A DNA stretch of 64,000 bases from Mixia osmundae IAM 14324 (Eukaryota > Basidiomycota > Mixiomycetes > Mixiales > Mixiaceae). Below are positions 444 to 61,900 of this stretch, piece by piece. Made by a program: the position numbers and the translations under genes. Every line of letters begins with the position of its first letter. Positions within the stretch are counted from its first letter, which is position 1. The stretch lies in assembly GCF_000708205.1 (NCBI RefSeq), contig NW_014575557.1, positions 248,001 through 312,000 of the forward strand. Direction: 5' to 3'. The notes under the pieces are model-generated. The model searched no databases. It was given only the letters and a program-made list of their open reading frames with translations, and was not told the DNA's origin.

Positions 444-1452
444 TTACAGACTCGCAAGCATAGCAGCCAGTTCTGGCGGTACGCTGTAGTTCTCCAATTC
501 GGCCAGATCGCTCGCGGTCAGCTGGGGCACAAACGATGTTGACGACTGCCCCGGAGCGTTTGCGTCTGCTGTCAGCGTTGGCAGGTGCGCTTTTGAGTTG
601 AGGGGTGGTGCAGGAGCAGTGAGCGTATTGTCAAGCGGTATGGAAGGTAGCATAGCGAGAAGCGCGTCATAATCTGCCGCGGCTGCCGCTGCAGCTGCAG
701 CTGCGGTACCGGCTTGTGCGCCGTTGGGATTCGGCAGAGCAAAGTCATTGCTGGCATCGCCAAAGACTGCAGACCCGCCGAGAGGCAGGATAGGTTGACC
801 TTTCTCGCCTAGCGTCATATTCGGTGTACCTTGCCGCACGTCCGACTTGAGCGTGTGGCCGAAAGTAGATAGCAATTCTTGCTGATGCTGCGCCTGACGC
901 TCTTGTTGCGTCAGTCTCGTCGTTGATCTGCCTTGCGTAGGCTTAGCGATCTGGACCACATCATCATCGTCATCGTCTTTGATCTCGATGACTTGTCGCT
1001 CCGGTTGCGCTGCCTCGACAGCACTCGTCGCAGGGGTCACTTGTGGATCTAACCGGGCTTCGACCGCATGAAGCGACGAGGTTCCTCGTTCTGTATCTCT
1101 TTGGATGACGGCTTTGGCTACGAGAGCTTCATGTTCGATGCAATCGCAAATGGCTTGATACCGCTCACAAGCTTGTTCGAGCGCTTCGTTGAGTTGTAAC
1201 GGTACGCGAGAGACGTAGCCCTGAGCTTGCAATGCTCTCACGTCCCTGATGAATGATAAAATCTTGCCCATAGCGAGTAGTGCACTCTGTAGATGTGCTA
1301 TCAGCGCAACATGTAGCTACAGTGAGGACGTAGCATGCCTTGAGAGCGTCGGACAGAGCAAGCGTACGCTGCTGCGTGAATGTGTCGGGAGGACCCGGAG
1401 CTGGCTTGTAGACCAGCTTGCCTTCGTGGCGTTCGAAGGCTCGTAGATCCAT
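444..1452 (-). CDS. Unrecognised protein with helical N-terminus and acidic, low-complexity tail
   Basis: Two exons, 1452..1339 and 1286..444, give 318 residues. They join in frame only if the 52-nt intron has a GC donor (AAG|GCATGC) and ends CTACAG, with CTGAT as branch point; the join makes one continuous predicted helix (LALSDALK-SALLAMGKIL). After about residue 110 the protein is low complexity: a run of six Asp flanked by VIEI and VVQI, which looks like a SUMO-interacting motif, and a nine-residue Ala run. The build (short helical head, disordered acidic tail) is seen in nuclear accessory proteins such as Mediator tail or TFIID subunits, but I see no specific match. An alternative start at 1271 inside exon 2 would give 275 residues without any intron. 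Confidence 0.5.
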
Positions 1453-3431
1453 GTCGCTGTCGGCTCACGAGCGTGATCGACAGGGGTCGAATGCCGGCGC
1501 CAAACTAGTCGATTAGTCGACGTATCGACGCGAATTCGCAAATGCGACCGAACTGGCTTGGAAATGAAGTAGCTGCCTATCGCGCGATCAAGTCATGATT
1601 CCACTCTCCATGTCACGATCGTCACACTCGAATCCTGAGCCTGACCCTCACTCGGAAACTGAGTGTTCAGCAATCCGAGTCTCGTCCTTCCGCCTATCTC
1701 ATCTCCCTAAAGTAACAGAGACTTTGCCAGATCTGCAAGCCAACCTTTGCTATCTGCTTTCTTCCTGCCGGATGAGCGACACTGTGAACGCAGAAGCTAT
1801 AGCTTTACCACCCACGTCTATGAATGGCTGACTGGAACTTTTACCCTCCTTGCCAAAAGTTAGCACTCTTGATTTTATACACTAACATTTAGGTCTATCC
1901 ACTCTCGCGACACGTCAGGCCAAAGGATTCGGTCTTGCCGACGCCATCCAACGCATTCACATCAGAAATCACGAGGCCAATTGAGTGCCACAGGTGATTC
2001 GCGTCCCCAGTGGCTGGACTCATGTTGAGATTTTGTCCATCCACGTACATCACTCAACACCGTCCAAGAGGCCCGATCCCGCCCTCAGCAGCCTTCAAGC
2101 AAAGGCAATGAGCAGTACCATCCGTCATTACCATCTGACGAGGTTCTACATCGACATCGGCCTAGAAATAGTGTCTCTTCTCAGCACTGGCGCATGGAGC
2201 AGCTCGTTGCGAGGGCTGGTCCTCATGGCAACAGTCGACACGTACAGCCCCAGAGCACTATTGGCATCACACGTTGATACGCTCGAGAGACTGTCTTGTC
2301 GAGTCTATGGCAGAGTTGCTGACGTTCTTCGTCCTCTGCCGCTCGAGCTTCGCAAACTGAAATATCTCAACATCACGAGGGCTTCCTCGAATTCACCGAG
2401 GACCAGAAGATGTCCGTGCCAAATGTGCACGATGTCCACCTCGTGACGATGATTGATGTGTTAGAAATTATGCGGTCTCTCGAAACGCAGCCAGATAGTA
2501 TGCCGTATCTGTCAGTCGTCGCTTTCGATACGGATCAACTACTACGATGTACGGATCAATTACTACGGTGTCATCTTGGTCGGCATGGAACTGCATCCGC
2601 CCACGATGCAATGTGCATACTTATCTAGTATTGCTTTGAAAATGGCACTCCGCCGAAAAGGAATTGGGAGCTTGTTCGGCGTACTGGTGGCATCGACGAG
2701 CCTCGCACTCGGCTCGATCGACGCAATTCCTACGGACTGAGAAGAGAGGCAAGACAGGTCAAACGCTAGCTCATCGAATTGTGCTCTGGCAATGCACTGT
2801 TCCCTTTGGCATACGACGGCGCTTGCAAGTCTATCAGCGCTTCGAATGACATTTACCTGTTCACGACACGGTCCTATCAGGTATGCCGGACTACATGCCT
2901 TTGCAAATGTGTACAGGCACTCGTTGACTCACCCGATGACGAGCTATTTTGTATTGCATGCCCTGGTCGTTCAATCGCGTTTGAGCAGCAACAAGGTTGG
3001 CGCGCGCGTGTTCGTCGCGAGCATTCGACCAATCAAATTGGATGTCTCAGAAAGTTGCCGAGGGCGTTGCCGCGAAGGAGTACTCCACAAATCAGGCACC
3101 GACCGAGGGACTCGCAAAGAGGTGTGTGCAAAGCTCTTCATCTCCCGCGCAAGGCTTGCGTACTCGTGGTCATTCGTCTGCGACCATCGACGAGGACTCC
3201 ACAAGGGACGGCAAAAGCGTTACCCCGCGGTGCAGCCACCGTTTCCTCGAACTCTCGTTGTCGTGCTTGCATTGCGCACCGCGAAGATCGAGGAGCAGCA
3301 GCTCGTTCCTTGCCATCATTTTCGATCCCAATCTCAATCGTTGACGACCGATCTTCGGGGACGAGGCTGACACGCTCCGGTTTGGCAGGAAAAGCGATCG
3401 TATCTCTACTGCACAACTCGATCGAGAAGCA
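1453..3431. other. Poorly coding stretch upstream of the fumarate reductase gene
   Basis: About 2 kb. Many overlapping short frames on both strands in 2.7-3.4 kb look like chance. The only part with a protein-like composition is 1595-2628, listed separately. A 20-bp direct repeat (tacggatcaaYtactacgRtg) sits at about 2529-2571. The last few hundred bases should contain the fumarate reductase promoter; no clear TATA box was seen. Confidence 0.4.
1595..2628 (+). pseudogene. Possible decayed or intron-split LRR/F-box-like gene
   Basis: Three plus-strand frames (about 1595-1828, 1985-2446, 2410-2628) share a leucine-rich composition like the C-terminal part of fungal F-box proteins, with segments such as LERLSCRVYGRVADVLRPLP and LRKLKYLNI followed in another frame by MPYLSVVAFD. 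A plausible intron end (CTAAC then TTTAG, near 1893) separates the first two pieces, but the second has no ATG at its start and the second and third overlap in different frames near 2410 without an obvious intron. Either a fast-evolving gene whose introns I cannot place or a decayed copy. No F-box itself was recognised. Confidence 0.3.
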
Positions 3432-5709
3432 ATGGCAAAAGCAATCGTCGTCGGTCAGTCAAACCTCCTTCCCCTGCTTTCTCGTCCTCTTGCGGCAGCG
3501 ATGAAGGCCAGCATCGACATGGCTCGAGCGCATTACCCCGCGCCCGATTGCTCAGCTGTACAGTATGCTAACGCGCTCGACGAGCAGGCGGTGGTCTCTC
3601 TGGTCTTTCGGCCGCACACACGCTCTACGAGCGAGGCGCAAATGTCCTCTTGCTCGACAAGGTGAGCCGTGCACGTTCTGTTCCGGCGTGCACAGGACTT
3701 ACGTAGAGATGTGCAGAATGGCTTCATGGGCGGTAACTCGACCAAGGCGACATCGGGCATCAACGGTGCAGGCACCAACACCCAGTCAGAGGCTGGCATC
3801 CCTGATTCTGCAAAGACCTTCTTCGAAGACACCAAAAAGTCTGCACGAGAGCTCGCTCGTGACGACCTCATCAAGGTCCTCACCGGTCGATCTGGCGATG
3901 CTGTCAACTGGCTCCAGGTATGTCTCTCCGCCTTTACGAACGATGTAGGCTGAATATCTTTCTGTAGGACCGATTCGCGCTCGACTTGAGCAAGGTTGCA
4001 CGTCTGGGTGGTCACTCTCAGCCGAGAACACATCGCGGCGGTGCTCAGTTCCCAGGCATGACGATCACCTATGCTCAGATGGAGAAGCTTGAGGACCTCG
4101 CGGAGAATGACCCCGAGCGTGTTCAGATCCTCAAAAAGGCAAAGGTCACCAAGCTCTTGCAGGACTCCGAGGGCGCTGTTACTGGTGTCGAGTACGAGCA
4201 CGATGGCAAGACATACAAGGAAAACGGTGCCGTCATCCTTGCAACCGGTGGCTATGCTGCCGATTTCAGCGCGGATGGTCTGCTCAAGCAGTACCGCCCT
4301 GAGCTGCTCCCACTTTCGACCACCAACGGCGATCACTGCACGGGTGATGGCCACAAGATGATCCGCTCGATCGGCGGTGCCCTCATCGACATGGAGAAGG
4401 TGCAGGTTCACCCAACTGGTGAGTATCACGTTACGACGCAATGGACATCGCTAATCTCAGTATGTAGGCCTGGTTGACCCCAAGTCGCCAGACGACAAGG
4501 TGAAGTTCTTGGCTGCCGAAGCTCTTCGAGGTGTTGGTGGCATCTTGCTCGACAACGAAGGTGAACGCCTCGCTGACGAGCTCGGTCACCGTGATTACGT
4601 TACTGGCATGATGAACAAGCGCAACAAGTTCCCGGTCCGCCTGATTCTCAACGGCGCGGCTTCTGACGAGATTCTCTGGCATTGCAAGCACTACACCGGC
4701 CGTGGCCTCATGAAGAAGTTCGACAGCGGAGCCGACCTCGCAAAGGAGATGGGTATTCCAGAATCGAAGCTCAAGGGCGCTTTCGACGATTATACGTCTA
4801 TCGCAAAGGGCGAGAAGAAATGCCCCTTCGGCAAGAAGTTCTTCAACGGCAAGGCTTCCGAGTTCACGATGAACGACCACTTCTATGTCGCTCATATGCA
4901 GCCCGTCCTGCATTACACCATGGGCGGTGCTCAGATTGATGACCAATCTCATGTCATCGACTCGAACGGCAAGCCCATTCCCGGTCTTTTCGCATCTGGC
5001 GAGATCGCAGGCGGTGTGCACGGTGCCAACAGACTCGGCGGTTCCTCATTGCTCGGATGTGTCGTCTTCGGCCGTGTTGCCGGCGACAGTGCAGCCCAAT
5101 ACCTCATGAAGGGTATCTCGAGCGGTAAGATCGCAGCCGGCCGTCTCGGCCAGGTTGCGAACCACCTCGAGACAAAGATTGTCTTTGACGGTCAGAAGCT
5201 CACGCTCGAATACAACGTCGCTGGCGGCTCGCAGTCTTCCTCTGCTGGTAATGCTGCGCAGTCGAGCCCACCCTCCCAAGCTAGCAACTCTGCTGGTCCC
5301 GATCTTGGCCCGAAGGGCAAGGAGGACAAGCCTCAGCAGCCAAAGTTGAAGCCTTTCACGATGGATGAGGTCGCGAAGCATCAAGAAAAGGGCGACATCT
5401 GGGTCGTCGTGTCCGGCCAAGTGCTAGACGTCACCAACTTCCTCGAAGATCACCCAGGTGGTCCCAAGGCTGTAAGCTCCTCTCGCTGGTCGCACCTGGC
5501 AACCTGCTGATTCATACCCGCAGATCCTGCTTTATGGCGGACGTGATGCCACCGAAGAATTCCTCAGTATGTCACCTTCTCAATCTTGCAGCCGACAGGG
5601 CTGACCGAGCATAACAGTGTTGCACGACCCATCGGTCATTCCAAAGTACGCTGCCAGCTGCGTCATTGGCTATATCGAAGGATCTGCCGCAGCACCCGCT
5701 TCGACCTAG
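3432..5709 (+). CDS. OSM1: Soluble fumarate reductase with C-terminal cytochrome b5 domain
   Basis: Seven exons (3432..3453, 3588..3661, 3717..3917, 3968..4418, 4468..5471, 5524..5566, 5618..5709) encode 628 residues. The protein reduces fumarate to succinate with FAD, as in the yeast Frd1/Osm1 family. The FAD-binding start reads AIVVGGGLSGLSAAHTL with the acidic ribose-binding end LLLDK, then NGFMGGNSTKATSGINGAGT, all hallmarks of the family. LFASGEIAGGVHGANRLGGS is the second FAD contact. From about residue 540 the chain becomes a cytochrome b5 domain with the haem motif HPGG; budding-yeast Osm1 lacks this fusion. There is no mitochondrial or secretory leader, so a cytosolic enzyme is inferred. 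The first intron (134 nt) is long for this region. MED31 follows on the same strand. Confidence 0.9.
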
Positions 5710-5884
5710 ACATCGCAGCCTGATTCATGTTCACGATCGCTTGGGGCTATATTGAGGGCCTGTCCATTCTACTTCATTGCACACATTTTGGCATCTTTTC
5801 CCTTGCCGCCGCCGTCTTCTCGATTCTGCGGCTGTGCGACGCGTAGCACTAGCATGCTAGTACGAGCACGCTAGGTCGCGCGCT

Positions 5885-6376
5885 ATGGATGAGGGCAAAG
5901 CAGATGAGAGCAGCAGTAAAGCCAGGCTGGAGCTAGAGCTCGAATTTGTGCAGGCGCTAGCCAATCCTCTGTATCTACAACGTGGGTACTCGCATGCAAG
6001 CCGAGCCGTCACAGAGAAAGCTAAAGAGGGATGCGCAGACATTGCGTCTCAGGCATATTTTGCTGACCCGGCGTTCGTCAAGTCTGTATTGCAGCGTTGC
6101 AGGGCGGACGTGGGCTCATGCAGGCGTGATAGTTACTTGGCCTACTTGAAAGAGCACTACTGCAGGCCAGAGCGTGCCAGATTCGTGCAATATCCACAAG
6201 CGCTCCAGCTGCTCGAGCTGCTACAGGTAAGTCTGACTATTGAGCTAAGATGCGTATGCTCATGATGATGGACATTGCAGAAGAAGGAGTTCAGGGAGAG
6301 AATAGCTACAGAGACGATCTCGCGAGACGTAGCGATGCAGCAACTCGCTCATTGGACTAGCTCTTCAGAGCTGTAG
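5885..6376 (+). CDS. MED31: Mediator complex subunit 31 (Soh1)
   Basis: Two exons (5885..6226, 6281..6376) encode 145 residues. The core carries the strongly conserved MED31 pattern: FVQALANPLYLQ, then YFADPAFVKSVL, then ARFVQYPQALQLLELLQ, and after the intron the FRERI helix. MED31 sits in the middle module of Mediator and links activators to RNA polymerase II. The polymerase's largest subunit is at the other end of this window. The protein is a little longer than yeast Soh1 because of an N-terminal Ser/Glu-rich stretch. It converges on the malate dehydrogenase gene with 67 bp between stops. Confidence 0.9.
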
Positions 6377-6443
6377 CAGAACAGACGGTCAAGCCATGTT
6401 GTGTGTTGTAGCACTTTGCATTTGTGTTCGATGATGGATTCCT

Positions 6444-10957: not shown

Positions 10958-11033
10958 ATCTGCACGCAGCTTTCCTTGCTGCTTTTTTCCTTTCTTATTG
11001 ATTGTACAACATGCATGCTCTGTTGCCTTCCCC

Positions 11034-12032: not shown

Positions 12033-12671
12033 ATGCTTCGAACAGTCAGCAGCAGAGTCGTACGAGCCTCCTTCCTCAAAGCAAGTCGTTCTGCTCCCTC
12101 AGCGCTCCGTGCGCCTCAATGGCAAGCTCGCCCATCCGTACAACTCCGTCAGCTATCAGTCAGCGTTGCCCGCTCTCGAGCACTGCCGCTGTCCTTTGCG
12201 AAAGACAAGCTCAATCAGGACGTGACGTACGATGAGCTCAAGCCGCTCACTGAGCAACCGTCAGACGATGTCCTCCTCGTAGGCCAGTCTCAACGCGCAA
12301 CATGACCCCGACAGCGTGCTGAGGGGGTAGATCGAGCAGATGTGAGGGAGATTGATGAAGTCATGCAAGGCAATATCCCTTCTTCGGTCAACTTGCCCTT
12401 GTCCGACTTGGGCAAGACGCTCGAGCTCGATTCGGGCGAGTTCACGAGGTTGCACGGATTCTATAAGCCCACAAAGGAGCAGCCCATGGTCTTCTACTGC
12501 CGTACTGGCAAGAGGTCAGAAGCGGCCAAGCAACTCGCAGAGAAGAAAGGCTACCAGTTTGTACGCAACTACAAGGGATCCTGGGCAGACGTAAGCCCTC
12601 CTACGCTGATCGGTCGACGGAAGCTGATGAGGAAAGAGCAGTGGGTCGCGAACGAGAACAAGTCGAGCTAG
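12033..12671 (+). CDS. Mitochondrial single-domain rhodanese (thiosulfate sulfurtransferase)
   Basis: Three exons (12033..12282, 12340..12590, 12642..12671) encode 176 residues, like yeast Rdl2. About 55 N-terminal residues are rich in Arg, Ser and Ala and lack acids, a mitochondrial leader. The rhodanese domain has LLVDVREIDE, then IPSSVNLPLSDL and the active loop VFYCRTGKRSEAA with the catalytic Cys. The first intron must use a GC donor (GTAG|GCCAGT) to restore the VDVRE motif; the GT two bases earlier breaks the frame. The second intron removes a frame that would otherwise read through; the chain then ends GSWADWVANENKSS. Confidence 0.85.
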
Positions 12672-12708: not shown

Positions 12709-15700
12709 TCAGTGCAGGAAGACGTCCAGTCGAGTGAGCTGGGTGTACGTCTCCGATCGCAGTGCAAATCGCAACATGCCAGAGAAAGTCATCACCGCTC
12801 TCGCATACCGCTTCATCTGAGCGATCTTACTCTGCCGGCCTTCGTCTCCGTAGGGCGATTCTTTCAATCGAGCGTTGAGCTTGTACAGGGTATTCATCAC
12901 CGTCAGAATGACGACATCGAAGTTGCGCGTGATCGCATCGTCGAGCTGCTTGAATTCTTCTGCCCTTCGAATCAGAGTGTTCATATCGCCTTCGAGCGGA
13001 ACAATATTGAGCTCCTCGAAGATCTGTGATTATCGTCAGCTTGGCAACGTGATACATCGAGCGAAACTAACACTGAGAGCACGCTCAAGCTGATCTTGCT
13101 CGTAAAGAGTGATCGCTTCTTTCAAGTTGACCAGAGTGATACTGGCTTCTTTCAGTCTTCTGGAAATCTTGCTAGAGATGACAATCGATTTTTCGAAGTG
13201 GCCGATGATGCTCTTCGCCGTGCCGACTGGATCCTCCTGCACTGCGAATTGCGTACTGGCGTTTGGCGCTTTGCCTGCGGTTGAGGCTGCGCTCGAACTG
13301 GGCCGAGACAGCGAGGCGCCTAGTTCGGCATTGAGCACTCGCAGAACAGCGTCGTACTCTTCTGCGAGGTTGAAGAGTAGAATGGAATCCCCAAAGCGCC
13401 TTTCTCGATCTGCTTGCGCCGCTGCCGCTCTGACGATATTGGCCAGATAGTCAGAATTGCTACTCAAGCCAATCAGTTTCAAGTCTTTCTCTATTTGACC
13501 GGGCTGTCAGTACGCAAATGTTGATCAGCAGCTAGTCACTGGTTTCGGAGAGTACCACTGACCACTTTGGAGCCATCAGTGCGGATATCGCCGAGCAATT
13601 GGCTGTACGCTTTGCTGTCCATGACCAGCTCGCGAAGATAGTCATAGCAGATCGCCTTCTGTTCTCGATCGATCGGCGAGGGACATTTGATGTTCAGGCA
13701 GATGAGATAGATGTATTGCAGAGCTTCCGTGGGATCCGACCGCGCAAAGAGTCGGTAGTATCGGTAGATCAGTCGCGAGAAATTGAGCGTCGCGTTCTGC
13801 TGCGTTTTGCTGACTTGCTCGACCGTCACTGCAGAACGCTCTCAGTCTAGTACTGCACTCAATGATACGGACTTACAGAGATCGACATCGGAGACTTGAT
13901 CCTTGCGAGGCAGGCGCAGGAGACCATAGTAAGCCAGGATGATCGCAAAGTGAACTGCATCGACTTGATATTGCGAGCGACCGTAGAGGAACGCAACGGC
14001 CTGCGCAGTCAATGTCTGAGCACACAGAGACGCTCAGAGAGAAGGCAGTCTAACCCTTTCATAGTTGCCGGATAGCAAGAGCAGCTGAAAGTAGAGAAGC
14101 GGACGACTGCCTTTTGGGTCAAAGTGAGCCTCGCCATACTTGACGAGAAGCGCTCCTAGATCTTGCAGGGTGTAGCTCTCTTGCTCTGCTTGCTCGCTTT
14201 CTCTGATCATCTGTAGCTGGAACCACATCCAGTCTTCGGCAGTGTCGGTCACGCCAGGCACGCTCCTCCTCGATAGTTCAGAACGGCCCATGAGTTTGTA
14301 GAGAGCGTATTTGAACGGGTCTTGCGATTCTGACGAGAAGCGAATCTTTTGCTGGTACTCTGTCAGGAAGCGGTCGCGCAGATGACGAGGCAGTCGACGG
14401 TCTGGAGAGTCTAGCCATGCTTTGAAGTAAGGTATAAAGGACCTTTCGAGCTTCTGTATGCTTTGCTCGTTTTCTAGTGCGAAGGAGAGTGCTTCTTGGG
14501 GATGGCCCGCTCGCAAGAGAAAGAATATCCTTGCCCACACTGGCGTGTTATTGGCGAGCTAGACTCTGGGAATGAGCTTGAGCCTGAAGCATGCAAAAGA
14601 TTCTCACCTGCAGATCAGGAACGGTCCATTGGCCCATTTTGCTGTACCTGAGGCTGACGAAAGCCCTGATCTTGTTCTGCAGTGATGGCACGCCGCCTAA
14701 GTTGGCTTCTGTCGGCTTTGCAGCAAGCATTCTCTCCACGTAGCGCATGAACCTATACAGCCCAATGTGAGTACGGCGTGAAGCTCAGCAGAGTGGTCAC
14801 TGACTGGTCCTGTAGAAAGTCTGTGCCGCCTACGATGATCTGATGACGATACGCTCTGCTTTCGACGGTGTCACGATCAGGATCCCAGTAGCCTTTCAGG
14901 TAGGCGCCTTGGGGAAGCTGAACACGAGTGAATTGGGCCTGTCCATCTGTCGATACTGCCGTTTCGTGAAGAAGCTTGGCCATTAGTGAGTAAGTCTCGT
15001 TGAGCTGCGCAGATTTCTGCAGCAGGAACTTGCGAGTTCAGCTTGTTCCAGCTGCACATCAGAGAACAAGACTTGCCTGATCAGTTGAGGGACCGGTAGA
15101 AGAAGCAAGTGCAGCATCTGCAAAGAGCCGGATGATGCCAATGGGTTCTTCCGCCTTTCTGGCCTCGTTAAGTTTTCGAACGGCTTGATCGTACTTCATC
15201 ATGCGACTGTGCATCTGCAATTGACCCGACTTGGCGGGTGTGGCACCGGACAATGAAGCGGGGACTAGCGAAGCAGTCGAGGGATCGACGAGGACGGAAT
15301 TGCCGAAAGTGCTCTCGTCTTGGCCTAGCAAATTCGTCCGTCGAGTGCTTCCTAGACGGGAAGTAGACGCGGAGAAAGAATCGTCGCCAGACTCGAACGT
15401 GAGCGTGCGACTTTGTTGATCTTGTGCATTGGCAGTCGTCGCGGCCTGGTGCGCTCCGAGCTCGTCCCAGAGCGTCGCGCGCATCTTATCCCATGAGCGT
15501 TTCAATCCCTGATCGATGACTTTCTGAGAGTCCCTGAGGGTCTGAGCTCTGGTTAATTCGATGATGCCCACGATGGACTGTTCGTGCATGTGTTGTAGCA
15601 AAAGCGGCAGGTCGCCCGCAGGAGTGCTGCTGACAGTATCGTTGACGGGTTGAGCTTGCCTGCCCAACTGTCTCGGCAAGCTGGAAAGCATATTCTCGAG

Positions 15701-16577: not shown

Positions 16578-17419
16578 ATGGCACCGAATGGGCAGTATCA
16601 CATCCTGCTCAAGATGCTCTTGATTGGCGACTCCGGTCCGTTGCGCCTTGCCGCGTGTCACGGGTCTTGAGCTGATTGAGCATCATACGACGACAGGCGT
16701 GGGCAAGTCATGCTTACTGCTGAGATTCTGTGATGACGCCTGGACGCCATCCTTCATCACGACGGTCGGCATCGACTTCAAGATCCGGACTATCGAGCTC
16801 GACGGAAAGAGAATCAAGTTGCAGATCTGGGACACGGCAGGACAGGAACGCTTCAGGACCATCACGACGGCCTACTATCGAGGCGCAATGGGTATTCTGC
16901 TCGTGTACGATGTCACAGACGAGCGAAGCTTTAACAGTGCGCCTTTTGCCGCGCACTTAGCGGGCCGTAAGCTGAATGCCCGGCTCATAGATATCCGGAC
17001 ATGGCATGCAAACATAGAGCAGCATGCATCCGAAGGTGTCAACAAGCTCCTCATCGGCAACAAATGCGATTGGACAGAGAAGAAGGTGCGTCCATCTGCT
17101 CCCAACATGATGCTGAGCTTACGCGACCAATGCAGGTCATCACTGAGCAACAAGGAAGGGAACTAGCAGACGAGCTCGGCGTTGGCTATCTCGAGACTTC
17201 CGCAAAGACCAACATCAATGTCGAAGAAGCTTTCTTCACGCTAGCAAGGCAAGTTCGCCCAGTGTGCCTGTGCTCTCTGTAAACTCATACCATCGAAATG
17301 GCAGGGAAGTGAAGAACAGATTAGTAGATACTGCGGGACCAGACGCAGCTGCAGGTGCCAACAGACCAGGAGCGGTCAATTTCAACAGTGGCCCATCAGC
17401 AAAGGCTGGCTGCTGTTGA
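16578..17419 (+). CDS. SEC4: Rab GTPase of the Sec4/Rab8 class
   Basis: Five exons (16578..16635, 16697..16936, 16991..17085, 17136..17248, 17305..17419) encode 206 residues. Sec4 delivers secretory vesicles to the plasma membrane. G1 GDSGVGKS spans the first intron; the effector loop [19 protein letters not shown]3 [14 protein letters not shown]4 GNKCDW and G5 ETSAK are complete, and the chain ends in a double Cys for geranylgeranylation. The [13 protein letters not shown] and [12 protein letters not shown] segments place it in Rab8/Sec4 rather than Rab1. The last intron has the GC donor AAG|GCAAGT, required to read AREVKNRL across the junction. Confidence 0.93.
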
Positions 17420-20500: not shown

Positions 20501-22029
20501 GTAGGCGAGATGAGCTTAGCGAGCAGGGGTAGTTGCTCGCTGTAGGTATCGACGCTGGCCGCGAGCAGCTTGATGGCTGCCTTGCGTACTTTCCACGTTA
20601 CATCATCGTCGTCCGAGTATTCATCTTCGTATTCGTCGTCCATGGCATCGTCTTCGTCATCAGCTGCCATGTCGGCATCGCCGTCATCGTCGCCAGCATA
20701 ATTCGGATCGTATGAACATAGCTTTGTTGCAATTTCAATGCTCGTCGAGAGGTGCTCTGTAAATTCTGCAGGGCACTTGACCAGCAGCGTTTGCAGTGTC
20801 TGGCATATATCACCACCTTAGCCTGATAGCTACTGATCCATAAACAGGACGCACGTTCAATGCTTGCTCTTTCAGCTCGTCATCGTCTGCCGAGATGGCG
20901 GCCTTTTGCACACGCGCAGCGTAATAATTCATTCTGGCTTGAGTGACTTCACGCGGTGCTTTACTGTGTTCATCGTTCCGTCAGCATGCACAAGTGGGAA
21001 CGTACAGAAAGCGACACTGACTTTGCAAGCGAGATGACGAGCCCCATGCCGGTCTTTGTGACTTCTACATCGCCCGAGTCCAAAGCGGGCATGACGGTCT
21101 TTTCGACGAGTGTAGCAGCAACGCTATCTGAAGAGGAAGCGATGAGAAAGCCGAGAGCATCGACCGTACGCTTTCTGACGGCCGGTCGAGCATGATCGAG
21201 CAAGGGTGCGAGGACCTGAAGGATCTGAGTCTGAAGTGCGGGCGTTGCTCTTACGATAGCTTCGAAGGAGATGAGTATCTCGCTCAGTAGCTCCGTGCAG
21301 CCTAGGAGGGTATCTTGGGCCTGAGTAGCACCTGAGGAGCTGGAGGCCGTTGCAGGCTTCCCGTTGGTCGGTGCAGGCGGCAGACCGCTCGAAAGCTGGG
21401 CGCAAAGTTTGGGTATGAGCTTATGGCATGCGCTCGAGGCTAATTTGCCTGTCGAAGGGAGCTCGCGAATGACGGTACGAAGGCCAAGGTTGGCAATATC
21501 ACGATCGGAACCCTCTTTGCTATTCGTCAGAGCGATGAGTGAGTCGACGATGCTGAGCAAGCTCTGCTCTGTCAATTTGGGGATCAAGCATCCAATCCTA
21601 ATTTACCGCCTCAGTCAAAACGCGCCTGGAGCAGCGAAAGAGAGAAAGACCGACGTGGTGACGGCATTGTTCTTGACTTCTGTGATCCCGTCGGAGAGCA
21701 TACCGACGACGGCATCGACGACTTTCTTCTCGGTATGATAGTCAAGCGAACCTGATCTCGCGCCATAGTATGATCCTGCACTGCTGCCCGAGCTTGCAAA
21801 GGCGGTTGCGTTGGAAGGCGTCAGACGGTTGATCTCGGTCTGGAGATCATTGAGGGCCATGAAACGCAGATCTTGGTCTGAGCTCTTGAGCTGCAAGGTG
21901 AGCAAAGGCGCATCAAGTTAGAGACGAGCCATGGACGTCAGGGTTCTGCCTGGTCAGTGCTGCCTCGATGACGAGCTTATGTAGCACACGGACCTTTCCC
22001 AGTAGCTGTGTGACATTGTAAGAGTCCAT
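17593..22029 (-). CDS. CAND1: CAND1 (TIP120), cullin exchange factor
   Basis: Six exons (22029..21994, 21890..21655, 21597..21022, 20963..20855, 20799..17994, 17936..17593) encode 1368 residues, slightly above the usual 1230. CAND1 wraps around unneddylated cullins with HEAT repeats and exchanges their substrate receptors. Family segments include SSDQDLRFMALNDL at the start, the acidic DEYSDDDDVTWKVRKAAIK hinge, VRKAAFD-like repeats, and near the end the AVKQE...KSALRALASLS segment of the last helix pair. The 103-nt first intron is long here. Its start is only 125 bp from the MFAP1 start on the other strand. Confidence 0.93.
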
Positions 22030-28188: not shown

Positions 28189-29944
<1,756 letters not shown>

Positions 29945-32807: not shown

Positions 32808-35498
<2,691 letters not shown>

Positions 35499-36982: not shown

Positions 36983-37901
36983 ATGTTTGCGCGTGCTATC
37001 GTTGTTGCCGGACTCGCTTCTTCTGCTATCGCCGCCAGCCAACAGTTCACGGATGTCTGCGAAAAGGGCGAGTTGCCAAGCATGCCAAACAGACACGGTA
37101 GCTGAAGAACATAGCAGGCTATGTCGTGGAAAGCTTGGAGCTCGCCAATAACGGAGGCAAAGGTTTGACCTCCCTGCATCTTCGTCCTTGCCCCGCTACA
37201 GGCGAAGCTGCCTTTGGTGCCATCTTTGACTGGTCTGGCGCCGATCTCACCGTCAAGGTGAGCCGTGCTGGATCTCAGACCAACAGACAGGTTGACACTT
37301 CGCAGTCGTATCCCAATGCTGCAATTACCGTCGGACTCAACAAGCCCATCGCGAGCTACAAGTCGATCCCGCTCTACATGAACTGGAACTGGCTCAAAGA
37401 TCCCTCTGCCATTCAAGCGTTCACCGGTCTCCAGATCCATCACAGCGGTATCCAGATCAAGATCACTCTGTCGTATCGAGGCGCAATGGCACCCGGCCAA
37501 CTCGTTGCTACCCCTGTCATTGGTGGCAAACAATTCAAGCTCTACAAAGACGAGCCATCGCAGACGTGGTCTTACCTCAATGATGGCTTCACTGGTACTG
37601 ATTTCTATGCCGAAGGACTCGTAAGTCGCACCAGCTCAGCAAGCTGACCAGAGCTGATGGAACAGTTGTAGGATTTTGTCAATGTACGGCTGTGAATCTC
37701 GCGATCAGCGCTGGCTGATCATCAGAAACAGGATGCCGCCAAACAAGGTGCGGCTCTGACAGGCGATCTGACGGCCGTCAGTGCGGGCACGGAGATCTTC
37801 AAGGTGCGAGCTTTGCATGCCTATAGGCCATGCTCTGATCACTCGCTTTGCAGGGCGAAGGCATTTTCTTGCTCAACGCTTTCACTTGTGTGCCATACTA
37901 G
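36983..37901 (+). CDS. Secreted GH12-like protein, probably not catalytic
   Basis: Five exons (36983..37067, 37118..37620, 37672..37683, 37732..37803, 37854..37901) encode 239 residues. MFARAIVVAGLASSAIAAS is a signal peptide. The fold matches GH12: SIPLYMNWNW, KQFKLYK, EGLDFVN and the acid/base block SAGTEIFKGEG. The strand that carries the nucleophile Glu in the 30-kb GH12 protein (FEIMVW) here reads IQIKITL, with Lys in place. Exon 3 is a 12-nt micro-exon coding DFVN, itself conserved in the GH12 at 30 kb. The first intron (50 nt) appears to use a GC donor, AAGG|GCGAGT; a second GC further right would give a 38-nt intron and is less likely. Confidence 0.72.
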
Positions 37902-52273: not shown

Positions 52274-53598
52274 CTAGCTGCTGAACGAGAACTTTGCGCC
52301 GAGTTTGTGCGTGCCAGACTTGCTTGCATCGCCCGTTTCGCTAAGCTTCTGCGTATCGAGCAAGAGACCCCACGAAGCGATGACACCCGGTCGGAGCGCT
52401 TGCGTGTATCCCAATGCGAGAATACCGGCATTGTTGATCTTGGCCTCTGTGACGAATGCGAATGAGAAGATGTGTCGAGCACATGCAGTGCGTACACTTA
52501 CTGACGAAAGTAGCATTGTCGAGGAAGGTCTTTGCGCCTACTTCTATTGAGACTTTGTTCGAGGGCGACTTGTTGTCGTAGATTGCCTGCTCAGCGCATC
52601 AGCCGGCGCAAGGTCACGTGTCAGCATGAGAAATACCTTTGCACCGGCTTCGACATCGATGTTGACCTTGTGGTAGTATGAAGCAGAGTAGACCGACAGG
52701 TTGTTGAGAGCATGGAGCGTGACGTTGTATTCGGGCGCAGAGTAGCCAATTGCGCCGGACCATTTCTGGACCTTTGCAGCCTGAACGTCGTAAGACAGAT
52801 CACCTCCGACGAGGTATCCATCGCGTCTGGCGTTTCAAACTAAGCGAGTGCTTGCCAGTTGCAAATGCTTAGCGACTGACCCAGTGACGACATCAGCTGT
52901 GAAGGTGGGGCCCTTGAAGAGGTCGAGGTTGGCACGACCGTGGACACCAGCCTGCTTGTAGATGGCCATGATGGCCGCAGTCTTCTTTCCAGCATCAGGT
53001 TGTAGCGAGGTCTGGACGTCCAGCTTCAAGCCTGCTCTCTTGCGCGTTCAGCGTGAGGCGCAGGTTCGAGCAAACCTGCGCACCCTTGGACACGAGGCCC
53101 TCGAGCTCGATCTGGGACTTGAGCAGGTTGTTCGTCGTCCAGGCTTGGGTGAAAGTGAGGCCGTTCTTGGGCTGAACATATTTGCCTTCGATATCGCTGC
53201 ATTATTTTGCAGAGTTAGCATGCCACATTGGCTTGGAGGAGACGACGTGCCCTGTGATCACATTTGACTTGGCGTCCTTGATACCTCCGACCTGCAAGAC
53301 CAGGTCAGTCGACTGAGACACCCTTAAACATCGAGTGAGGAGCAGCGACTTGCCTTGAAGGTAACGCCATTCGGTGCGCGAGTCTTTACTTCGAGCTCTG
53401 TGCCGGCTGTTGGAAAGTCCTGCGAACAGCTTCGACATGAGACGGACAACGCCTTCGCGAGCTTGACGGCTCGCCTTGTTGAGGAGGTCGTTGGAGGCCT
53501 TGGCCAAGTCCTACAGAGCAAAAGAAAGAGGTCAGCCAGGCACATCGCATGAACGGTTGGCGACGCGCTTTGAAGGAAGGTGGCACGCCGACAGACAT
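52274..53598 (-). CDS. POR1: Mitochondrial porin (VDAC)
   Basis: Nine exons (53598..53569, 53510..53475, 53419..53354, 53291..53251, 53196..53084, 53031..52881, 52826..52637, 52586..52502, 52446..52274) encode 294 residues, the usual porin length. VDAC is the outer-membrane beta-barrel for metabolites. The N-terminal helix reads PPSFKDLAKASNDLLNKDF; strands include GLTFTQAWTTNN, LDLFKGPTFTADVVTG, DGYLVGGDLSYD, GYSAPEYNVTLHA and NNAGILALGYTQALRPGV. The first four introns all need GC donors (GCGCGT, GCGAGC, GCAAGT, GCACGT), and each junction falls inside a conserved porin segment, so the calls are firm. The later four have GT donors. Confidence 0.93.
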
Positions 53599-54493: not shown

Positions 54494-54554
54494 TGAGACG
54501 TGCGACAATCTATCGAGGTTGCAAGTACAACATCTTTGCGATAGCCGGGGGGTA

Positions 54555-56857
54555 TTAGTCCAACGTATGCAAGCCAGATCTACGTCGACGGGCCTCTTCG
54601 AATCCGCCCACGGTCAAACCCGTTATCCAATCTCGGTAGAGAACCCAGCTTGCTCGCAGATCGGCCAGCGTCTCTGCAAACAGTAGACCGCGGTGCCAGA
54701 GCTGGAAGCCAAACCAAGAAGAGACGGATCGTCGGATGAGCGAGAGGGAAAGACCGGTCGAGACTCGTTCTTCCGATAGTTGACGTTGATCGTCTTGCCA
54801 TACTGCTCTCGTGCAGAACTCTGCCACGATGAGCCAGATGCGATAGGGAGGATGAGTTGGCTTCAATGCAGTATCGAGCGATCTTGTCAGATCACTGTGC
54901 TTCGTGATCAGCATGAGTCGAATTGAGAATCGATGGGCACTGACTTGAGTTTGAGAACCATAAGTAGACGCCGAGGAACCCGTCTGAGCAGGTCAAAGAT
55001 ACTCGTGAGCAGACCTTCTTCGACTACTGCAACTCTGATGCGATGTGCTTCTTCTGGCGTCTGGTTGGCCAGATCCATCATACTCCCTCCTCCTGCTTTG
55101 CCCAACGATGCTCTCCCGGTGATGGCGGATTCAAAGATGGGGTAAAGGTCGTCATCGATATTGCCCACGAGTTTGGCGTACTTTCTCCGATCTGCTTCTG
55201 TCTTTGCCGAGGGACGAGCGATGAGCGATAGCCAGAGTCTGGCGTAATTCGTTCTGAGCGCTCTGTCGACATCGAAGTAGAGACCTGCAGAGTCTTGAGA
55301 CGATGCGTGTTGCGCAAGGCAAGAAGAACATACCATGATCAAGCAGGACGATTTCAAAGTTGTAAGGGCTTCGTGAGTGAGGCTGGGCAGGTCGGATGAG
55401 GAGATTACCACCGTGCTGCTCGACTGTGAGCTCGGTCGTTATGGGAGAAACGAGAGACGGACAGGATCACCGTGGAAGAAGCCGTTGATGTAGAGCATCT
55501 GAGAGAAGATCCTGCTGAGTTCTTGCGAGACGCGATTGCGATCGATGTTGTGATCGTGGAGATACTTGAGATCGTCTACTCTGCCGCCTTGTATATCTGC
55601 ACGTCACAGGACCGATTCGTGAGCAGGGAGCGCTCAGGGAGTGAATGAGCTTGCACTCCATGACCATGACACGGCGCTCTGACCAGAGAACTTCGGGGAT
55701 GACGAGAGAGGTCGTTTTGAGATCTTGGAAATCTCTCGTTGCTCTTCGTGCGTTTGCCGCTTCATGACCTATTAGCATGAGGTGGATTCAGCTCGAAGCG
55801 TTTGCAATGCCGAGCCAGACCACTGACGGAAGTCCATCTCGAGCGGAAGGTTCTCTTCCATTTCTTCGCCTAGCCATGTGAACTGCTCGACGGTCTTGGA
55901 TCATGGCTTGACACCCAACACGCTGGCTGGACAAACCTCGAAATCAGGAAAGAAGGATTTGACCACGCGGAGCATGAATGTCGTCGTCTTCATGTCGACA
56001 TAGGCAAAATCCTCGAGATCGGGATGCATGAGTTTGATGGCCACCCTCTTGCCCGATCTCTTATCTGTGCCCACATGGACTTGAGCCAGCGATGCCACGC
56101 CGATAGGATCCGGATCGAAATCTGTGAATTGGTCTTGGAGTGTGACGCCCAGATCTGTGAGAAAGAGTTGTTCTATATCCCTCACCGGTGTAGGATTGCA
56201 CTGATCTTGCAGGGGCACCATCGTCGAACTCCAGGCGGTGGGTATGAGTTGGACAGACGAGAGATGTTGACCCAATTTGATATAGATGCCACCGTTGGTC
56301 TTGAGGACTTCGAGTATCCTCTCGGCGCATTTCTTATGGCAGGCTTCGTAAGCCTGATGGCGCTCTTCCTTGTCGGTGAAGGTGCGTCGGAAGAGGAGCT
56401 TGTAGTCGACAATACAGTGTCCTACTGCTATTCCAACGAGAGTGCATCGTCCTATTGCCAGCGTGAACAATCGGAAAGGTCGAACAGTCTCATAGGCAAC
56501 AAAGCCAACGCTCAAGACGATAGCCACCGTCAGACCGAGCCGTCTCCACTGTCTCTTTCGTCGAGATCGTTTCTTCCTCTCTGCTTGCGATTCTGTTGTA
56601 CCGACAGGCGCTTGCTCGGCCAGAGGCGTGACGCTGTCCGTCGCAAGAGCAACAGACCATCGTGTGGAAGTATTCAGTCGGGCTACGGATGGCGGTACGG
56701 CTGTGCGGGTGGAAGGACGAGAGGACGAGTGCAAAGACCGTTGTCGGCTGTACGTGTCGCTGTCGAACCGAGGAGCGGCGCAGGCCCACTGGTTGATAGC
56801 GTGCGGTGGTCTGAAGCGTACGACATGGCCCGATAGCGCTCTTGTGGCCAGCTGCAT
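54555..56857 (-). CDS. ABC1/ADCK (UbiB) family kinase-like protein, mitochondrial
   Basis: Seven exons (56857..55937, 55882..55828, 55768..55655, 55596..55463, 55415..55334, 55284..54945, 54894..54555) encode 661 residues. The N-terminus is Arg/Ser-rich with one membrane helix (LGLTVAIVLSVGFVAYET). Family motifs are the KxGQ block GIYIKLGQHLSSV, GVASLAQVHVGT in place of the P-loop, VAIKLMHP, GFFHGDPHGGNLLI and LLDHGLYFD. LDHGLY is typical of the ADCK1/yeast Cqd2 (Mcp2) branch, which handles coenzyme Q distribution and membrane lipids. Intron 3 needs a GC donor (GAGT|GCAAGC) to give VMEYIQGG. Confidence 0.88.
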
Positions 56858-56968
56858 CCGCCCTCAGGCCAGGCCAAGCACGTCGTCAATCGACCGAATC
56901 AGCCGAGTCGCGTGTCGTTTGCTCAGCAGAAAGGCGCAGAGGGCAGGCCAGCCAGGCAGCAAGGGGGC

Positions 56969-57412
56969 ATGTCGCTCGTGGGCGAAGATGGCTACCTGAA
57001 TGCGGACAGGCTCAGAGCCTACTTAGCGACTCATCAGCCCGCTTCGACGGTTCGTCATCATCGAGCACAGTCTGATCTCTCCTCCTCATCCTCCCAATCC
57101 GATTCGGTCACTTCGAGTGAGACGAGGCGATGGCTACAGGAGGATCTGGAGAGGGAAGAAGCAAAGGAAGAGCTATGGCGCCAGGCTCAGCTAGTGATCA
57201 ATATCGTCATCCTGCCTTGGTATGGCAAGTATAGAGGCAGGAAATTCGCTTATTGGGGTCAGTCGAACCAGACCTTTCCGCTCCGAGCCGAGCTGACGCC
57301 GTGACTTGACTCGACAGCGTACGATCGATATCTGCACCTCGGTCTGGGCTGGTCCTTCTTCGGTCTGGCTGACGGACTCGGTGGTCTGTTCGCCTTTCTA
57401 CGACGCGCATGA
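56969..57412 (+). CDS. Small mitochondrial-type membrane protein, possibly Mim2-like
   Basis: Two exons (56969..57257, 57318..57412) encode 127 residues. A Ser-rich, acidic first half is followed by LVINIVILPWYGKYRGRKFA and, after the intron, a second hydrophobic stretch LGWSFFGLADGLGGLFAFL ending in RRA. Acidic cytosolic part, one or two short helices and flanking basic residues fit a small outer-membrane import component such as Mim2, but I give that only as a possibility. It starts 111 bp from the ABC1-family kinase start on the other strand. Confidence 0.55.
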
Positions 57413-58967
57413 TCCTTGCCGATGAGGGGGGCGGAACAAGACAACAGGGCACAGCAAGCCCAGTCACAGCGAGCTCGCTCGTACGGCCGTCTGAGCCGCG
57501 TACTATAGTCGGAGCCGACTCTGACTGCGCAAGGCTAAGCGATAGAGACCACCCCTCATGTCAGGATCAGTGGTGTAGGAGCACAAGATGATGATGTTGT
57601 TGTTGTTGTCAATGATGCAGTGAACAACGTGCGTGACTAGCTTCTAAGCTATACTGGTCGGCTTCCTTTTTGTGCTCTTCTTGACCGTGTTCAGCTTGAC
57701 TTGACTTTGCCTTGCATTGCTCAGATGGCAGTCGAATCAGCGTTGGCTGCAGCTTCCAGGCTGGCAGTGAACTTGCTCGCGCTCTGATTCTGGGATGGTC
57801 CGTCTGCGTTCTGTCCACAGCCTTTCGACGGTCAGTGGTCCAGCAGAGACTGATTCGATCAAGCGGCGCACCAGTACGTCCACTTGGTCTGCAGGACCTG
57901 AATCCTCGCGTGTGTCCGGATGAGCATCGGCATCATCTGCATGGCTCTGTGCAGACCGTATTGCGCATCAGTGCACGTGCAGCATGCGTCAATTGGGACG
58001 TACGAATCCACCCGTGCTGGCTTTAGTTCGCTCGTGCGATGCGTCACTCGTCGAGTAGACGGGATCCTTGGGCAATCCCGACGGACTGTGGCACAAGAAG
58101 TGATCAGCCTCAAGACAGGCCGGTCAAGCTAGGGGTTCACTCTGTGATCTCGCCCTGAGGTTCAGAGGTCGTGAAGCCGACGACGGGCTCGCCGTCGATC
58201 TTGCCTGCATCTTCACCTGCATTCGCCTATGTGAGGCGGATGTCATCATCAGCAAGGGTTCCAAGCATGGAAGGCAACACGACGCACGCCTTGCGAGGGT
58301 ACGTCTCGGCCTCCTTGAGCACTATCGAGCGACATTGTATCTAGCCTGAACGTCCAATCTGACCTGGTGGACGATGGCGGAGCACGCGTCATCAGGATTC
58401 GCGTGAGAGTTTCATGATGACCACCCTCATGTCAGAGCAGTGCGTCTGGTTCGCGAACCGAGGGCGAGGACGAGTCAGCTTAGCCGCAAAGCCGTCAGCG
58501 AGCCGTCAGGGAGTCGTACAGAGGAGAGCAGGATTCCGATCTCACTGGGCAGTGCGAGCGGTCTTTCAGCGGCGATACGAGAGAGGGCAGTCATCCTGTC
58601 AGCTCGGTCGACGAGAACCTTTTGATCAAGATCTGGAGCGGTTCCTGGCTTTTCTTGCTGGACACTCGCTCACGATCGCACACACTCTTTTATCTTTTCC
58701 CCCCTCCAAACGCACGCAAAGGCTGCTGCACTAGACCGGAGGCACCGTGTCCAGACATCTACACACGCTCTGCTTGATCACACGAGAGAGCATACGGATC
58801 GTCTCCCTCAAGGCCAAGAGGCGCACTTGACTAGCAAGGCAGATCTCCTCAAACCCAAAAAGGCTTTTCTATTGTAGCGATCTTGTCCCCGTGCCACTGC
58901 TGCTGTTGAGAGAACCTAGACGGATGCGAGCATAGACACACTCGGGCATCTCAGCATTTCTTTCAAG
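57413..58967. other. Long spacer upstream of RPB1
   Basis: About 1.55 kb. It contains a short GTT-repeat tract (about 57594-57608), a possible 45-residue minus-strand gene (58137-58392, listed separately) and chance frames on both strands. A pyrimidine-rich stretch (about 58684-58700) lies some 270 bp before the RPB1 start. Much of this is probably RPB1 promoter and 5' leader. Confidence 0.35.
58137..58392 (-). CDS. Possible 45-residue protein in three exons
   Basis: Exons 58392..58364, 58321..58303 and 58226..58137 join in one frame from ATG to stop with GT-AG introns of 42 and 76 nt. The product is hydrophilic, beginning MTRAPPSSTSAQGGRD and ending VVGFTTSEPQGEITE. No family recognised. 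An alternative start inside the first intron (about 58337) gives a slightly different N-terminus with the same end. Support is only frame plus splice signals. Confidence 0.3.
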
Positions 58968-61900
58968 ATGCAGAATGCATTCACGTACTCGCAGGCTCCG
59001 ATCCGTCGAGTACGACAGATCCAGTTTGGCATCCTGTCACCCGAGGAGACGCGTGCTCTCTCTGTTGCAAAGATCGACTCTCCCGAGATCTATCAGGATG
59101 TCGGCCTCGGCGCGGGCAGCTCTGTTGGCGGTCGACCCAAGGCGGGCGGACTGGCAGATCCCAGGATGGGTACCATCGATCGCAACTTCAAATGTCAGAC
59201 CTGCGGAGAGGGGATGGCAGAATGTCCCGGCCATTTCGGTCATATCGAGCTCGGCCGGCCAGTCTATCATGTCGGCTTCATGACGAAAGTCAAGAAGATC
59301 CTCGAATGCGTCTGCGTCCAGTGTGGCACGCTCAAATCTGATCTATCGTGAGTCTTGCCCAGCTTTTGATCGTTGCTCTAGATGCTGATGCGTTGACTTC
59401 CAAAGTGAGCTACCCCTCGCGGATGCGGTCAGACATACCCAAAACCCAAAGAGACGACTCAAGCTGGTCCACGAGGTCGCAGCCAAAAAGCGTCAATGCT
59501 CGCGTGACGCGCCAGATATCCAGATCATCAAGGACGATGATCTCACTGGACTCGAACGCAGAGACGAAGGACGCGCCTCCCGGCTCGCTCAAGAATACTA
59601 TGCTGGTCGACATGGCGGTTGCGGATCGATCCAACCTGTCATCCGCAAGGAGGGCCTCAAGCTCTTTCTCGTGTACGACAAGTCGACGACAGACGACGAC
59701 GGTGGCAAGGACAAGTCTCAGGAGAAAGTCCCACTTTCTGCTCGGCGGTGTCTCGAGATCCTGCGCAGCATCCCAGAGAGAGATCTCGACTTCATGGGGT
59801 TGAGCAAGGACGAGGCCAGGCCGGAATATATGATCTTGCAGATCCTACCCGTGCCGCCACCGCCCGTCAGACCTTCAGTCTCTGTCGATGGCGGCGCGAT
59901 GCGCAGCGAAGACGATCTGACTTATAAGCTTATCGAAATCCTGCGGACCAATCAGCAACTCGTCAAGCTAGAGGCCGAAGGTGCAGGCGCTCATATTCTT
60001 GACGAATTTGAGCAATTGCTACAGGCACGTCCTCGGGACTCCCCTGCTGTGTCTTGCTAACCGATAGGGGGGACATGTAGTGGCATATCGCGACCTATAT
60101 GGATAACGATCTGCCCGGTCAACCCCAAGCGATGCAAAAATCGGGTCGTGCAGTCAAGTCCATCCGAGCCCGACTAAAGGGCAAAGAAGGACGACTGAGA
60201 GGCAACTTGATGGGAAAACGAGTCGATTTCTCTGCTCGAACGGTCATCACTGGCGATCCCAACTTAGAACTAGACGAAGTCGGCGTGCCCGAATCGATTG
60301 CGAAAAATCTGACCTATCCTGAGCGGGTGACGCCTTACAACATCACGGCTCTACAGGCTTTGGTTGCCAAAGGTCCAGACGAGCTGCCCGGTGCGAGATA
60401 CGTCGTCAAAGATTCGGGAGACCGAATCGATCTGCGGTATTTGCCTTCGGGCACGAGTATCGATCTGGCCTATGGCTGGATCGTGGAGAGGCATCTGCGG
60501 AATGGCGATTATGTTCTGTTCAATCGGCAACCGTCCTTGCACAAGATGTCCATGATGGCTCATCGTGTCAAACTGCTGCCTTACTCGACCTTTCGACTCA
60601 ATCTCTCTGTTACCCCGTTTGTCACCTTCTAGTCGCCGCGACTAACGAGCTGATTGGTCTGATGAACAGACCCTACAATGCTGATTTTGATGGCGACGAA
60701 ATGAATATGCATGTGCCTCAGAGCGAGGAAACTCGCGCAGAGCTACAGCAGATCGCATGGGTTCCCCGTCAGATCGTCTCGCCCCAAGCGAACAAGCCCG
60801 TCATGGGCATCGTGCAAGATACACTTTGCGGTATTCGCAAGTTCACCTTGCGAGACTGCTTCATGGATCGCGACTTTGTTCAGAATATCATGCTCTGGGT
60901 GCCGGAATGGGACGGCTTGCTCCCGCCGCCTGCAATTGTCAAGCCGAAACCAATGTGGACGGGCAAGCAGATCCTGTCGATGTGCATCCCTCGAGGTGTC
61001 AATCTGTTCATCGACAACGAAGCGCATTCTTCCCTGCCCGATGACGATTCTGGCGTCCTCGTAGACGATGGCGAGATTTATTATGGTGTGATCAATAAGA
61101 AGACTGTGGGTGCACAGAGAGAGTCGCTCGTCGATCTCATCTTCAGAGAAAAGGGTCCAGAGATCTGTCGACTGTTCTTCACGGGCGTTCAAAAGGTCGT
61201 CAATTTCTGGCTCTTGCACAATGGCTTCAGTATCGGTATTGGCGATACGGTAGCAGACAGGGATACGATGAGAACCATTACTGACTACATCCAGACTGCA
61301 AAGGACGAAGTGGCCGTCTTCATCTCCAAAGCGCAGCAAGATTTGATCGAGCCCGAGCCGGGTATGACGATCCGCGAGACTTTCGAATCGAAAGTCACCG
61401 GCTCGCTCAACAGAGCTCGTGATACTGCCGGTCAATCTGCCGAAAGAAGCTTGGCTGCGAGCAACAACGTCAAACAGATGGTCGTTGCCGGTTCAAAGGG
61501 ATCCTTTATCAATATCTCTCAAATGTCAGCTTGTGTTGGTCAGCAGATCGTAGAAGGCAAACGGATCCCCTTTGGTTTCCGATACCGTTCCCTGCCGCAC
61601 TTCACCAAAGACGATCACACACCCGAAGCACGAGGATTCGTGGAGAACTCTTACTTGCGAGGTCTGACCCCGCAAGAGTTCTTCTTCCACGCCATGGCTG
61701 GTCGTGAAGGTCTCATCGATACTGCTGTCAAGACTGCAGAGACGGGTTACATCCAACGTCGTCTTGTCAAAGCGCTAGAAGATGTCATGGTCAATTATGA
61801 CGGCACAGTACGCAATTCGCTCGGCGATATCGTACAGTTTGTCTACGGCGAAGACGGCATGGACGGTGCCTCTGTCGAACGTCAGGTCATCGAGCCCATC

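Follow-up and report, generated by a model that had tools for sequence, protein, structure and literature searches.

The 64-kb window analysed here (C7:248001-312000 of the genome of Mixia osmundae, a basidiomycete living on ferns, with 13.5 Mb in 19 contigs) contains a series of genes with predicted introns that start with GC, including those for VDAC/porin, an SRPK-type kinase, a SEC4/Rab8-like GTPase, ferrochelatase and RPB1. A sequence-only reading had placed about 99 introns within this window and listed 15 GC donors, and all 15 positions indeed carry GC on the strand assigned to them. Genes were predicted with a semi-Markov gene finder that was trained on long open frames and subsequently on its own iterations, and that admitted GT, GC, GA and GG donors at equal prior with a flank model derived from GT introns alone; a first setting without intron penalty placed too many introns. 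For every donor a leave-out score was obtained, which is the loss in log units when donors are forbidden one in turn. In addition, public proteins were threaded onto the DNA, where a GT donor was penalised less than a GC donor. The AG acceptor was imposed by both programs. The equal-prior gene finder picked 14 of the 15 listed donors, the exception being 33502. The corresponding introns are given below, with a slash for the exon-intron border.

1287..1338, minus strand: GC-AG intron with donor AAG/GCATGC (gene finder; leave-out 8.2)
12283..12339, plus strand: GC-AG intron, rhodanese-domain gene (leave-out 5.9; junction ungapped against RDL2, 6k6r)
15017..15076, minus strand: GC-AG intron with perfect flanks, CAG/GCAAGT, in a large gene (leave-out 6.3)
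17249..17304, plus strand: GC-AG intron with donor AAG/GCAAGT, SEC4/Rab8-like GTPase (leave-out 6.8; junction ungapped against Rab1B)
29304..29354, minus strand: GC-AG intron, ferrochelatase (HEM15) (leave-out 5.8; junction ungapped against ferrochelatase 2qd2)
33502..33553, plus strand: GC-AG intron, SRPK-type kinase (threading of L969DRAFT_95417; not picked by the gene finder)
34651..34705, plus strand: GC-AG intron, SRPK-type kinase (gene finder and threading; leave-out 5.6)
34918..34974, plus strand: GC-AG intron, SRPK-type kinase (gene finder and threading; leave-out 5.7)
37068..37117, plus strand: GC-AG intron, small gene (leave-out 3.7, the weakest among the 14 picked)
53511..53568, minus strand: GC-AG intron 1, VDAC/porin (threading of L969DRAFT_88777; leave-out 12.3)
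53420..53474, minus strand: GC-AG intron 2, VDAC/porin (threading; leave-out just under 4)
53292..53353, minus strand: GC-AG intron 3, VDAC/porin, donor AAG/GCAAGT (threading; leave-out 13.4)
53197..53250, minus strand: GC-AG intron 4, VDAC/porin (threading; leave-out 5.7)
55597..55654, minus strand: GC-AG intron, ABC1/COQ8-family kinase (leave-out 9.3; junction ungapped against 5yjz)
60025..60080, plus strand: GC-AG intron with donor CAG/GCACGT, RPB1 (leave-out 8.5; junction ungapped against Rpb1, 3h0g)

Forbidding the donor cost at least 4 log units at 12 of the 15 sites, the sites at 37068 and 53474 falling just short, while the donor at 33502, left unpicked by the gene finder, was nevertheless used in the threading of the public SRPK protein. 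The gene models of VDAC and the SRPK-type kinase could be compared with public proteins of the same species: the former was identical to L969DRAFT_88777 of M. osmundae IAM 14324 (100% over 294 amino acids) and the latter was 97% identical to L969DRAFT_95417. Threading placed GC donors in four of the eight VDAC introns (53568, 53474, 53353 and 53250) and in three of the nine SRPK introns (33502, 34651 and 34918), so that the public proteins agree with all seven listed GC donors in these two genes. Alignments with relatives of solved structure continue ungapped across the GC junction for RPB1, the SEC4/Rab8-like GTPase, ferrochelatase, the ABC1 kinase and the rhodanese. Two more GC-AG introns with a score of at least 4, absent from the original list, were found at 21569-21625 and 29406-29448, both on the minus strand. 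The large gene that holds the intron at 15017..15076 is presumably Nup93-like, a candidate label given by eye. The SEC4/Rab8-like model (16578-17419, plus strand) carries an insert of about 18 residues not present in its relatives, probably an in-frame intron left in by the gene finder.

To the window we added 20 other stretches of 10 kb (L010-L029), giving a sample of 264 kb. At equal prior and without a score cut the gene finder placed 487 introns within this sample, with 335 GT, 89 GC, 42 GA and 21 GG donors. Given the numbers of GA and GG donors in this set, many low-scoring GC calls must be false. At a score of at least 4 the counts were 201 GT, 37 GC, 3 GA and 0 GG, and at a score of at least 6 they were 102 GT, 16 GC and no GA or GG. 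The first of these cuts left 44 GT, 14 GC, 1 GA and 0 GG in the window, and 157 GT, 23 GC, 2 GA and 0 GG in the 20 outside stretches. The proportion of GC among GT and GC donors was thus higher in the window (14/58) than elsewhere (23/180), and for that reason the genome-wide value should be nearer 11-17%. When the donor shares were allowed to adjust by expectation maximisation (EM), the 364 introns outside the window comprised 290 GT, 58 GC, 15 GA and 1 GG, which amounts to a GC share of 58/348 among GC and GT introns, or 16.7% (12.5-20.7% in a bootstrap over stretches). Within the window the same procedure gave 94 GT, 25 GC and 4 GA, an intron total above the 99 or so placed initially.

With false GC calls allowed for, GC donors appear to make up 11-17% of the introns genome-wide, which bears out the share of about 15% proposed from the window. 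We conclude that the raised GC-AG share is real and genome-wide, with splicing at the individual sites being predicted. For comparison, GC-AG introns average 1.009% in annotated fungal genomes according to Table 1 of PMC7072748, and the same paper singles out Meyerozyma guilliermondii, in which major non-canonical sites reach around 6.67%, as a fungus well beyond that average.

The introns of Mixia that begin with GC are short, with a median of 53 nucleotides, a CTGAY-like branch motif and an RCAG 3' end. A CTGAY-like motif above the cut of the model was present in 466 of the 487 introns, whatever the donor type (the model rewards the motif), and an exact CTGAY within the set range in 225 of the 467 GT and GC introns of the EM set. 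The donor consensus of U12-type introns is RTATCCTT, and none of the 15 listed donors conforms to it. The GC-AG introns are, as judged from these features, ordinary short U2-type introns.

At a score of at least 4, the GC donors differ from the GT donors in their flanks. AG at positions -2 and -1 occurred in 20/37 GC versus 51/201 GT donors (p=8e-4) and a purine at +3 in 36/37 versus 142/201 (p=2e-4), and C at +3 was found in one GC donor of 37 compared with 51 GT donors of 201 (p=9e-4). The counts at -2, -1 and +3 support the earlier remark that the GC donors have strong flanks. No clear GC-versus-GT difference was seen for A at +4, G at +5 or T at +6, G at +5 being present in 36/37 GC and 191/201 GT donors. 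Counted by the number of flank positions that match U1, the GC share was 19/204 for at most 4 of 6 matches and 18/34 for 5 or 6 matches. The duplex energy with U1, calculated with standard RNA parameters and without pseudouridine, averaged -4.9 kcal/mol for GT donors and -3.9 for GC donors, and -7.6 for the GC donors when supplied with T at +2.

The GT donors themselves are very loose: GTRNGT was found in 104 of 384 in the EM set, and C is frequent at +3, +4 and +6 (+6C in 83/201 at a score of at least 4). A at +4 was present in 30/83 GT donors with A at +3 and in 42/51 with C at +3; in GC donors with A at +3 the count was 16/25. Avoidance of the stop codon TAA was rejected as a reason for the scarcity of GTAA, which is low in the other phases too (15/80, 7/63 and 8/58 GT donors by phase). 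Associations between positions of the GT donors can result from the choice of introns by summed score, and the argument for an upper limit on pairing developed below therefore rests mainly on the GC-versus-GT comparisons and on genome-wide pattern counts.

These counts were obtained without a gene finder, by scanning the whole genome for CAGGYAAGT followed by CTGAY within 20-45 bases. The scan returned 74 rows, 67 with GC (one donor occurring in two rows) and 7 with GT. A control with A or G at +2 gave 10 rows genome-wide, and a permuted branch motif gave 12 GC and 3 GT rows, of which 3 of the 12 share their donor with a row of the CTGAY scan. The distance to the branch motif was intron-like in 52/67 GC rows and 6/7 GT rows, compared with 4/10 and 1/12 in the controls. 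Modelled as a two-part mixture of distances, the data correspond to around 48 real GC and around 6 real GT introns with perfect flanks and a branch motif, an estimate that stands on some 54 introns and a background model. Since this ratio exceeds the C/(C+T) of 0.54 found in intron interiors, C at +2 is seemingly more than tolerated at perfect flanks, and where the other donor positions are perfect, GT appears for the most part to have given way to GC. As to the assembly, part of C8 may be present a second time in C17: kinase matches at C8:628816 and C17:5676 score equally, and an identical pattern match occurs at C8:642852 and C17:19712, both outside the window.

A raised GC share could in principle follow from an altered U1 small nuclear RNA (snRNA), for instance one with G at position 7 or a variant copy, that pairs with GC donors. 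An Rfam search of the genome for U1 found nothing, and two 5'-end patterns likewise missed it. It was reached via six ATACTTACCT sites, all of which were scanned and two of which score as U1 (32.8 bits, E 1.7e-5, under the Rfam gathering score of 69.5).

C4:1086418-1086597 (L044), plus strand: U1 snRNA copy, assigned by Rfam score
C4:1110563-1110742 (L045), minus strand: identical U1 snRNA copy, assigned by Rfam score

The two copies are identical over 180 bases and lie inverted, about 24 kb apart, and a search of the genome with their sequence returned no third copy. Their 5' end is AUACUUACCUUG, with the canonical AUACUUACCU, and has the usual A at position 7, opposite +2 of the donor. They diverge from the Rfam U1 and have an unusual Sm-site-like stretch, AAUACUUCC. 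A further candidate at C4:495846 was dropped for want of an Rfam score, and none of the 15 ATACTTGCCT sites scanned, out of 18, scored as U1. The U6 snRNA scores 80.3 bits against Rfam U6 and contains ACAGAGA; at L009:1501-1650 the 3' end of U6 is followed by another copy of its GCCUUCGGGC hairpin. The suggestion that the sequence of U1 or U6 has changed in this lineage is thus unsupported, as both U1 copies keep A7 and U6 keeps ACAGAGA. Moreover, a G at position 7 would free GC donors from the need for extra flank support, yet they have it. Considering these points, an altered U1 is exceedingly improbable.

The explanation that we favour, to which we assign a probability of roughly 0.6, is that these are ordinary U2-type introns with donors held at an intermediate level of U1 pairing, which would make C at +2 tolerable, and perhaps favourable, at perfect flanks. 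A U1 small nuclear ribonucleoprotein (snRNP) with a normal 5' end would read the GC donors, where the C at +2 would form an A.C pair with A7. Stronger pairing at -2, -1 and +3 would compensate for what is lost at +2. The total would be kept intermediate, as weak pairing would fail and very strong pairing would slow the release of U1 to U6; over-strong U1 pairing is known from yeast to hinder the transfer to U6 via Prp28. Where the remaining positions are perfect, C at +2 would then be acceptable and might be preferred. With respect to the A.C pair, PMC4383343 reports that the human U1 snRNP binds +2C better than +2A, for which its authors presume an A+.C wobble. What can be read from the DNA is how large the share of GC donors is, that their flanks compensate, that the pairing stretches of U1 and U6 are canonical and that GC is in excess at perfect flanks, while a pairing ceiling and its cause are inferred. 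More tentatively, and with odds that we put somewhat short of even, the textbook donor CAG/GTAAGT could be selected against by a ceiling on the stability of the duplex between U1 and the 5' splice site, with CAG/GCAAGT preferred at perfect flanks, in which case the GC-AG introns would serve as an adaptive counterweight instead of being errors that the cell tolerates.

Several observations weigh against the explanation by intermediate pairing. The background at perfect flanks is already skewed towards C, as apparent from the 12 versus 3 rows with the permuted motif and from the 6 CAGGCAAGT versus 2 CAGGTAAGT sites in the 264 kb. Of the latter, 2/6 and 1/2, respectively, were called as introns, and CTGAY was found at the range used in none of these eight sites. 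Numbers in the 264-kb sample are too small to show the reversal, for which the support comes from the pattern counts across the genome and their mixture model. Associations between positions of the GT donors, including the outcome of a column shuffle, can be artefacts of selection by score, and the shuffle was kept out of the main evidence on that account. The ceiling itself could stem from contacts with U6, U5 or proteins and not from the release of U1. In addition, splicing in vivo at the GC sites is inferred from sequence, GA and GG donors are imperfect controls for GC (the hexamer counts in the 264 kb being 218 for GCAAGT, 141 for GAAAGT and 88 for GGAAGT), and some GC calls are false, because EM retains 15 GA among the 364 outside introns. 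Unsupervised counts of k-mers and of donor plus branch in the 264 kb gave no clear signal.

The abundance of GCAAGT in this DNA, the GA and GG calls made without a score cut and the GA introns retained by EM would also fit a scenario in which the GC calls are false positives in coding sequence or sequence errors. We consider this very improbable, given that public proteins and homologues of solved structure fit the GC junctions and that GA and GG together represent 3/241 introns at a score of at least 4.

Simple relaxation followed by drift, with strong-flank donors tolerating C at +2 and the exchange of T and C being nearly neutral, predicts a C share like that of the intron interior. The 18/34 at flanks with 5 or 6 matches is close to the interior 0.54, and the called introns at fully perfect flanks in the 264 kb (2 GC and 1 GT) agree with it as well. 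Plain drift fits less well because GC is scarce at weak flanks and the preference for C over T at perfect flanks, around 48 against 6 genome-wide, exceeds 0.54; GTAA is, furthermore, rarer than GTCA among the GT donors. Drift as the sole cause of the genome-wide rise in GC-AG introns seems rather unlikely to us.

Finally, the reading of +2 may have been relaxed by a trans-acting change other than in the U1 or U6 sequence, such as in Prp8, Prp28, Cwc24, U1C or the modification of U1 or U6. The looseness of the GT donors at +3 and +6 and in GTRNGT would be in line with this. The U1C gene (around C1:1194404-1194631, L067, outside the window) has a predicted GC-AG intron within its zinc-finger codons, followed by an exon of 12 nucleotides, and removal of this intron restores the conserved THDS. 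The zinc finger has an ordinary appearance, and so has the single LUC7 locus found, in which a GC donor is predicted too. Among the 120 of 151 public U1C homologues listed, within the length limits of the search, there was none from Mixia, and 112 of these 120 fit the motif and were used for residue counts. Position 11 is Val in 87 and Ile in 11 of these, and position 12 is Phe in 84. The two positions were dropped as a cause, as the Ile-Phe of Mixia is nothing unusual and agrees with most of the fungal homologues. More unusual is His22, which would fit a trans-acting change, the residue there being Lys in 109 and Arg in 3 of the 112 motif-aligned homologues. A study cited in PMC4383343 found growth of yeast unaffected by Ala alone at position 22 of U1C, a result that counts against this reading. 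A trans-acting change is, in our opinion, unlikely though by no means negligible, and it would be compatible with intermediate pairing, as its cause.

The introns described here resemble the GC-AG subclass of U2-type introns, which is already known from fungi (PMC5832005, in a passage that cites a survey of Neurospora and euascomycetes), in that they have an AG acceptor, a branch motif of the usual kind, strong flanks similar to AG/GC[AG]AGT, and normal U1 and U6. They differ from it in their share (around 11-17% versus 1.009%) and in the estimated predominance of GC over GT at perfect flanks. PMC7072748 also describes single lineages, Eurytemora affinis and Oikopleura dioica, with one non-canonical donor in large excess, but there the donor is GA, whereas in Mixia it is GC and the searches turned up no changed U1. 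The shifts at +4 in Saccharomycotina, linked in PMC10581693 to METTL16 and SNRNP27K, likewise occurred with unchanged U1 and U6 pairing stretches; in Mixia it is +2 that differs, and positions +3 and +6 are loose. Unlike the nonconventional introns of Euglenozoa, for which variable borders and no complementarity to U1 are described, the donors of Mixia are complementary to U1. No report of a high GC-AG share in Mixia was found in the literature searched, to which the main genome paper and supplementary tables did not belong, and the same literature returned no description of a T/C reversal at perfect donors. Section 3.1 of PMC7072748, on species far above the average, does not name Mixia, and the text of a paper on Mixia nucleosomes (PMC3376729), according to which RNA-seq of M. 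osmundae was produced for annotating its genes, has no words beginning with 'intron' or 'splice'.

GC-AG introns usually make up around 1% of all introns and are treated as weak exceptions, and the share in Mixia is more than ten times higher. For gene finders this is a warning, as the U1C gene of Mixia seems to require both a GC-AG intron and an exon of 12 nucleotides. Considering its compact genome, the normal 5' end of its U1 and the apparent reversal of T and C, the organism would lend itself to asking, in nature, which strength of U1 pairing suits a spliceosome and whether an excess of such pairing is harmful.

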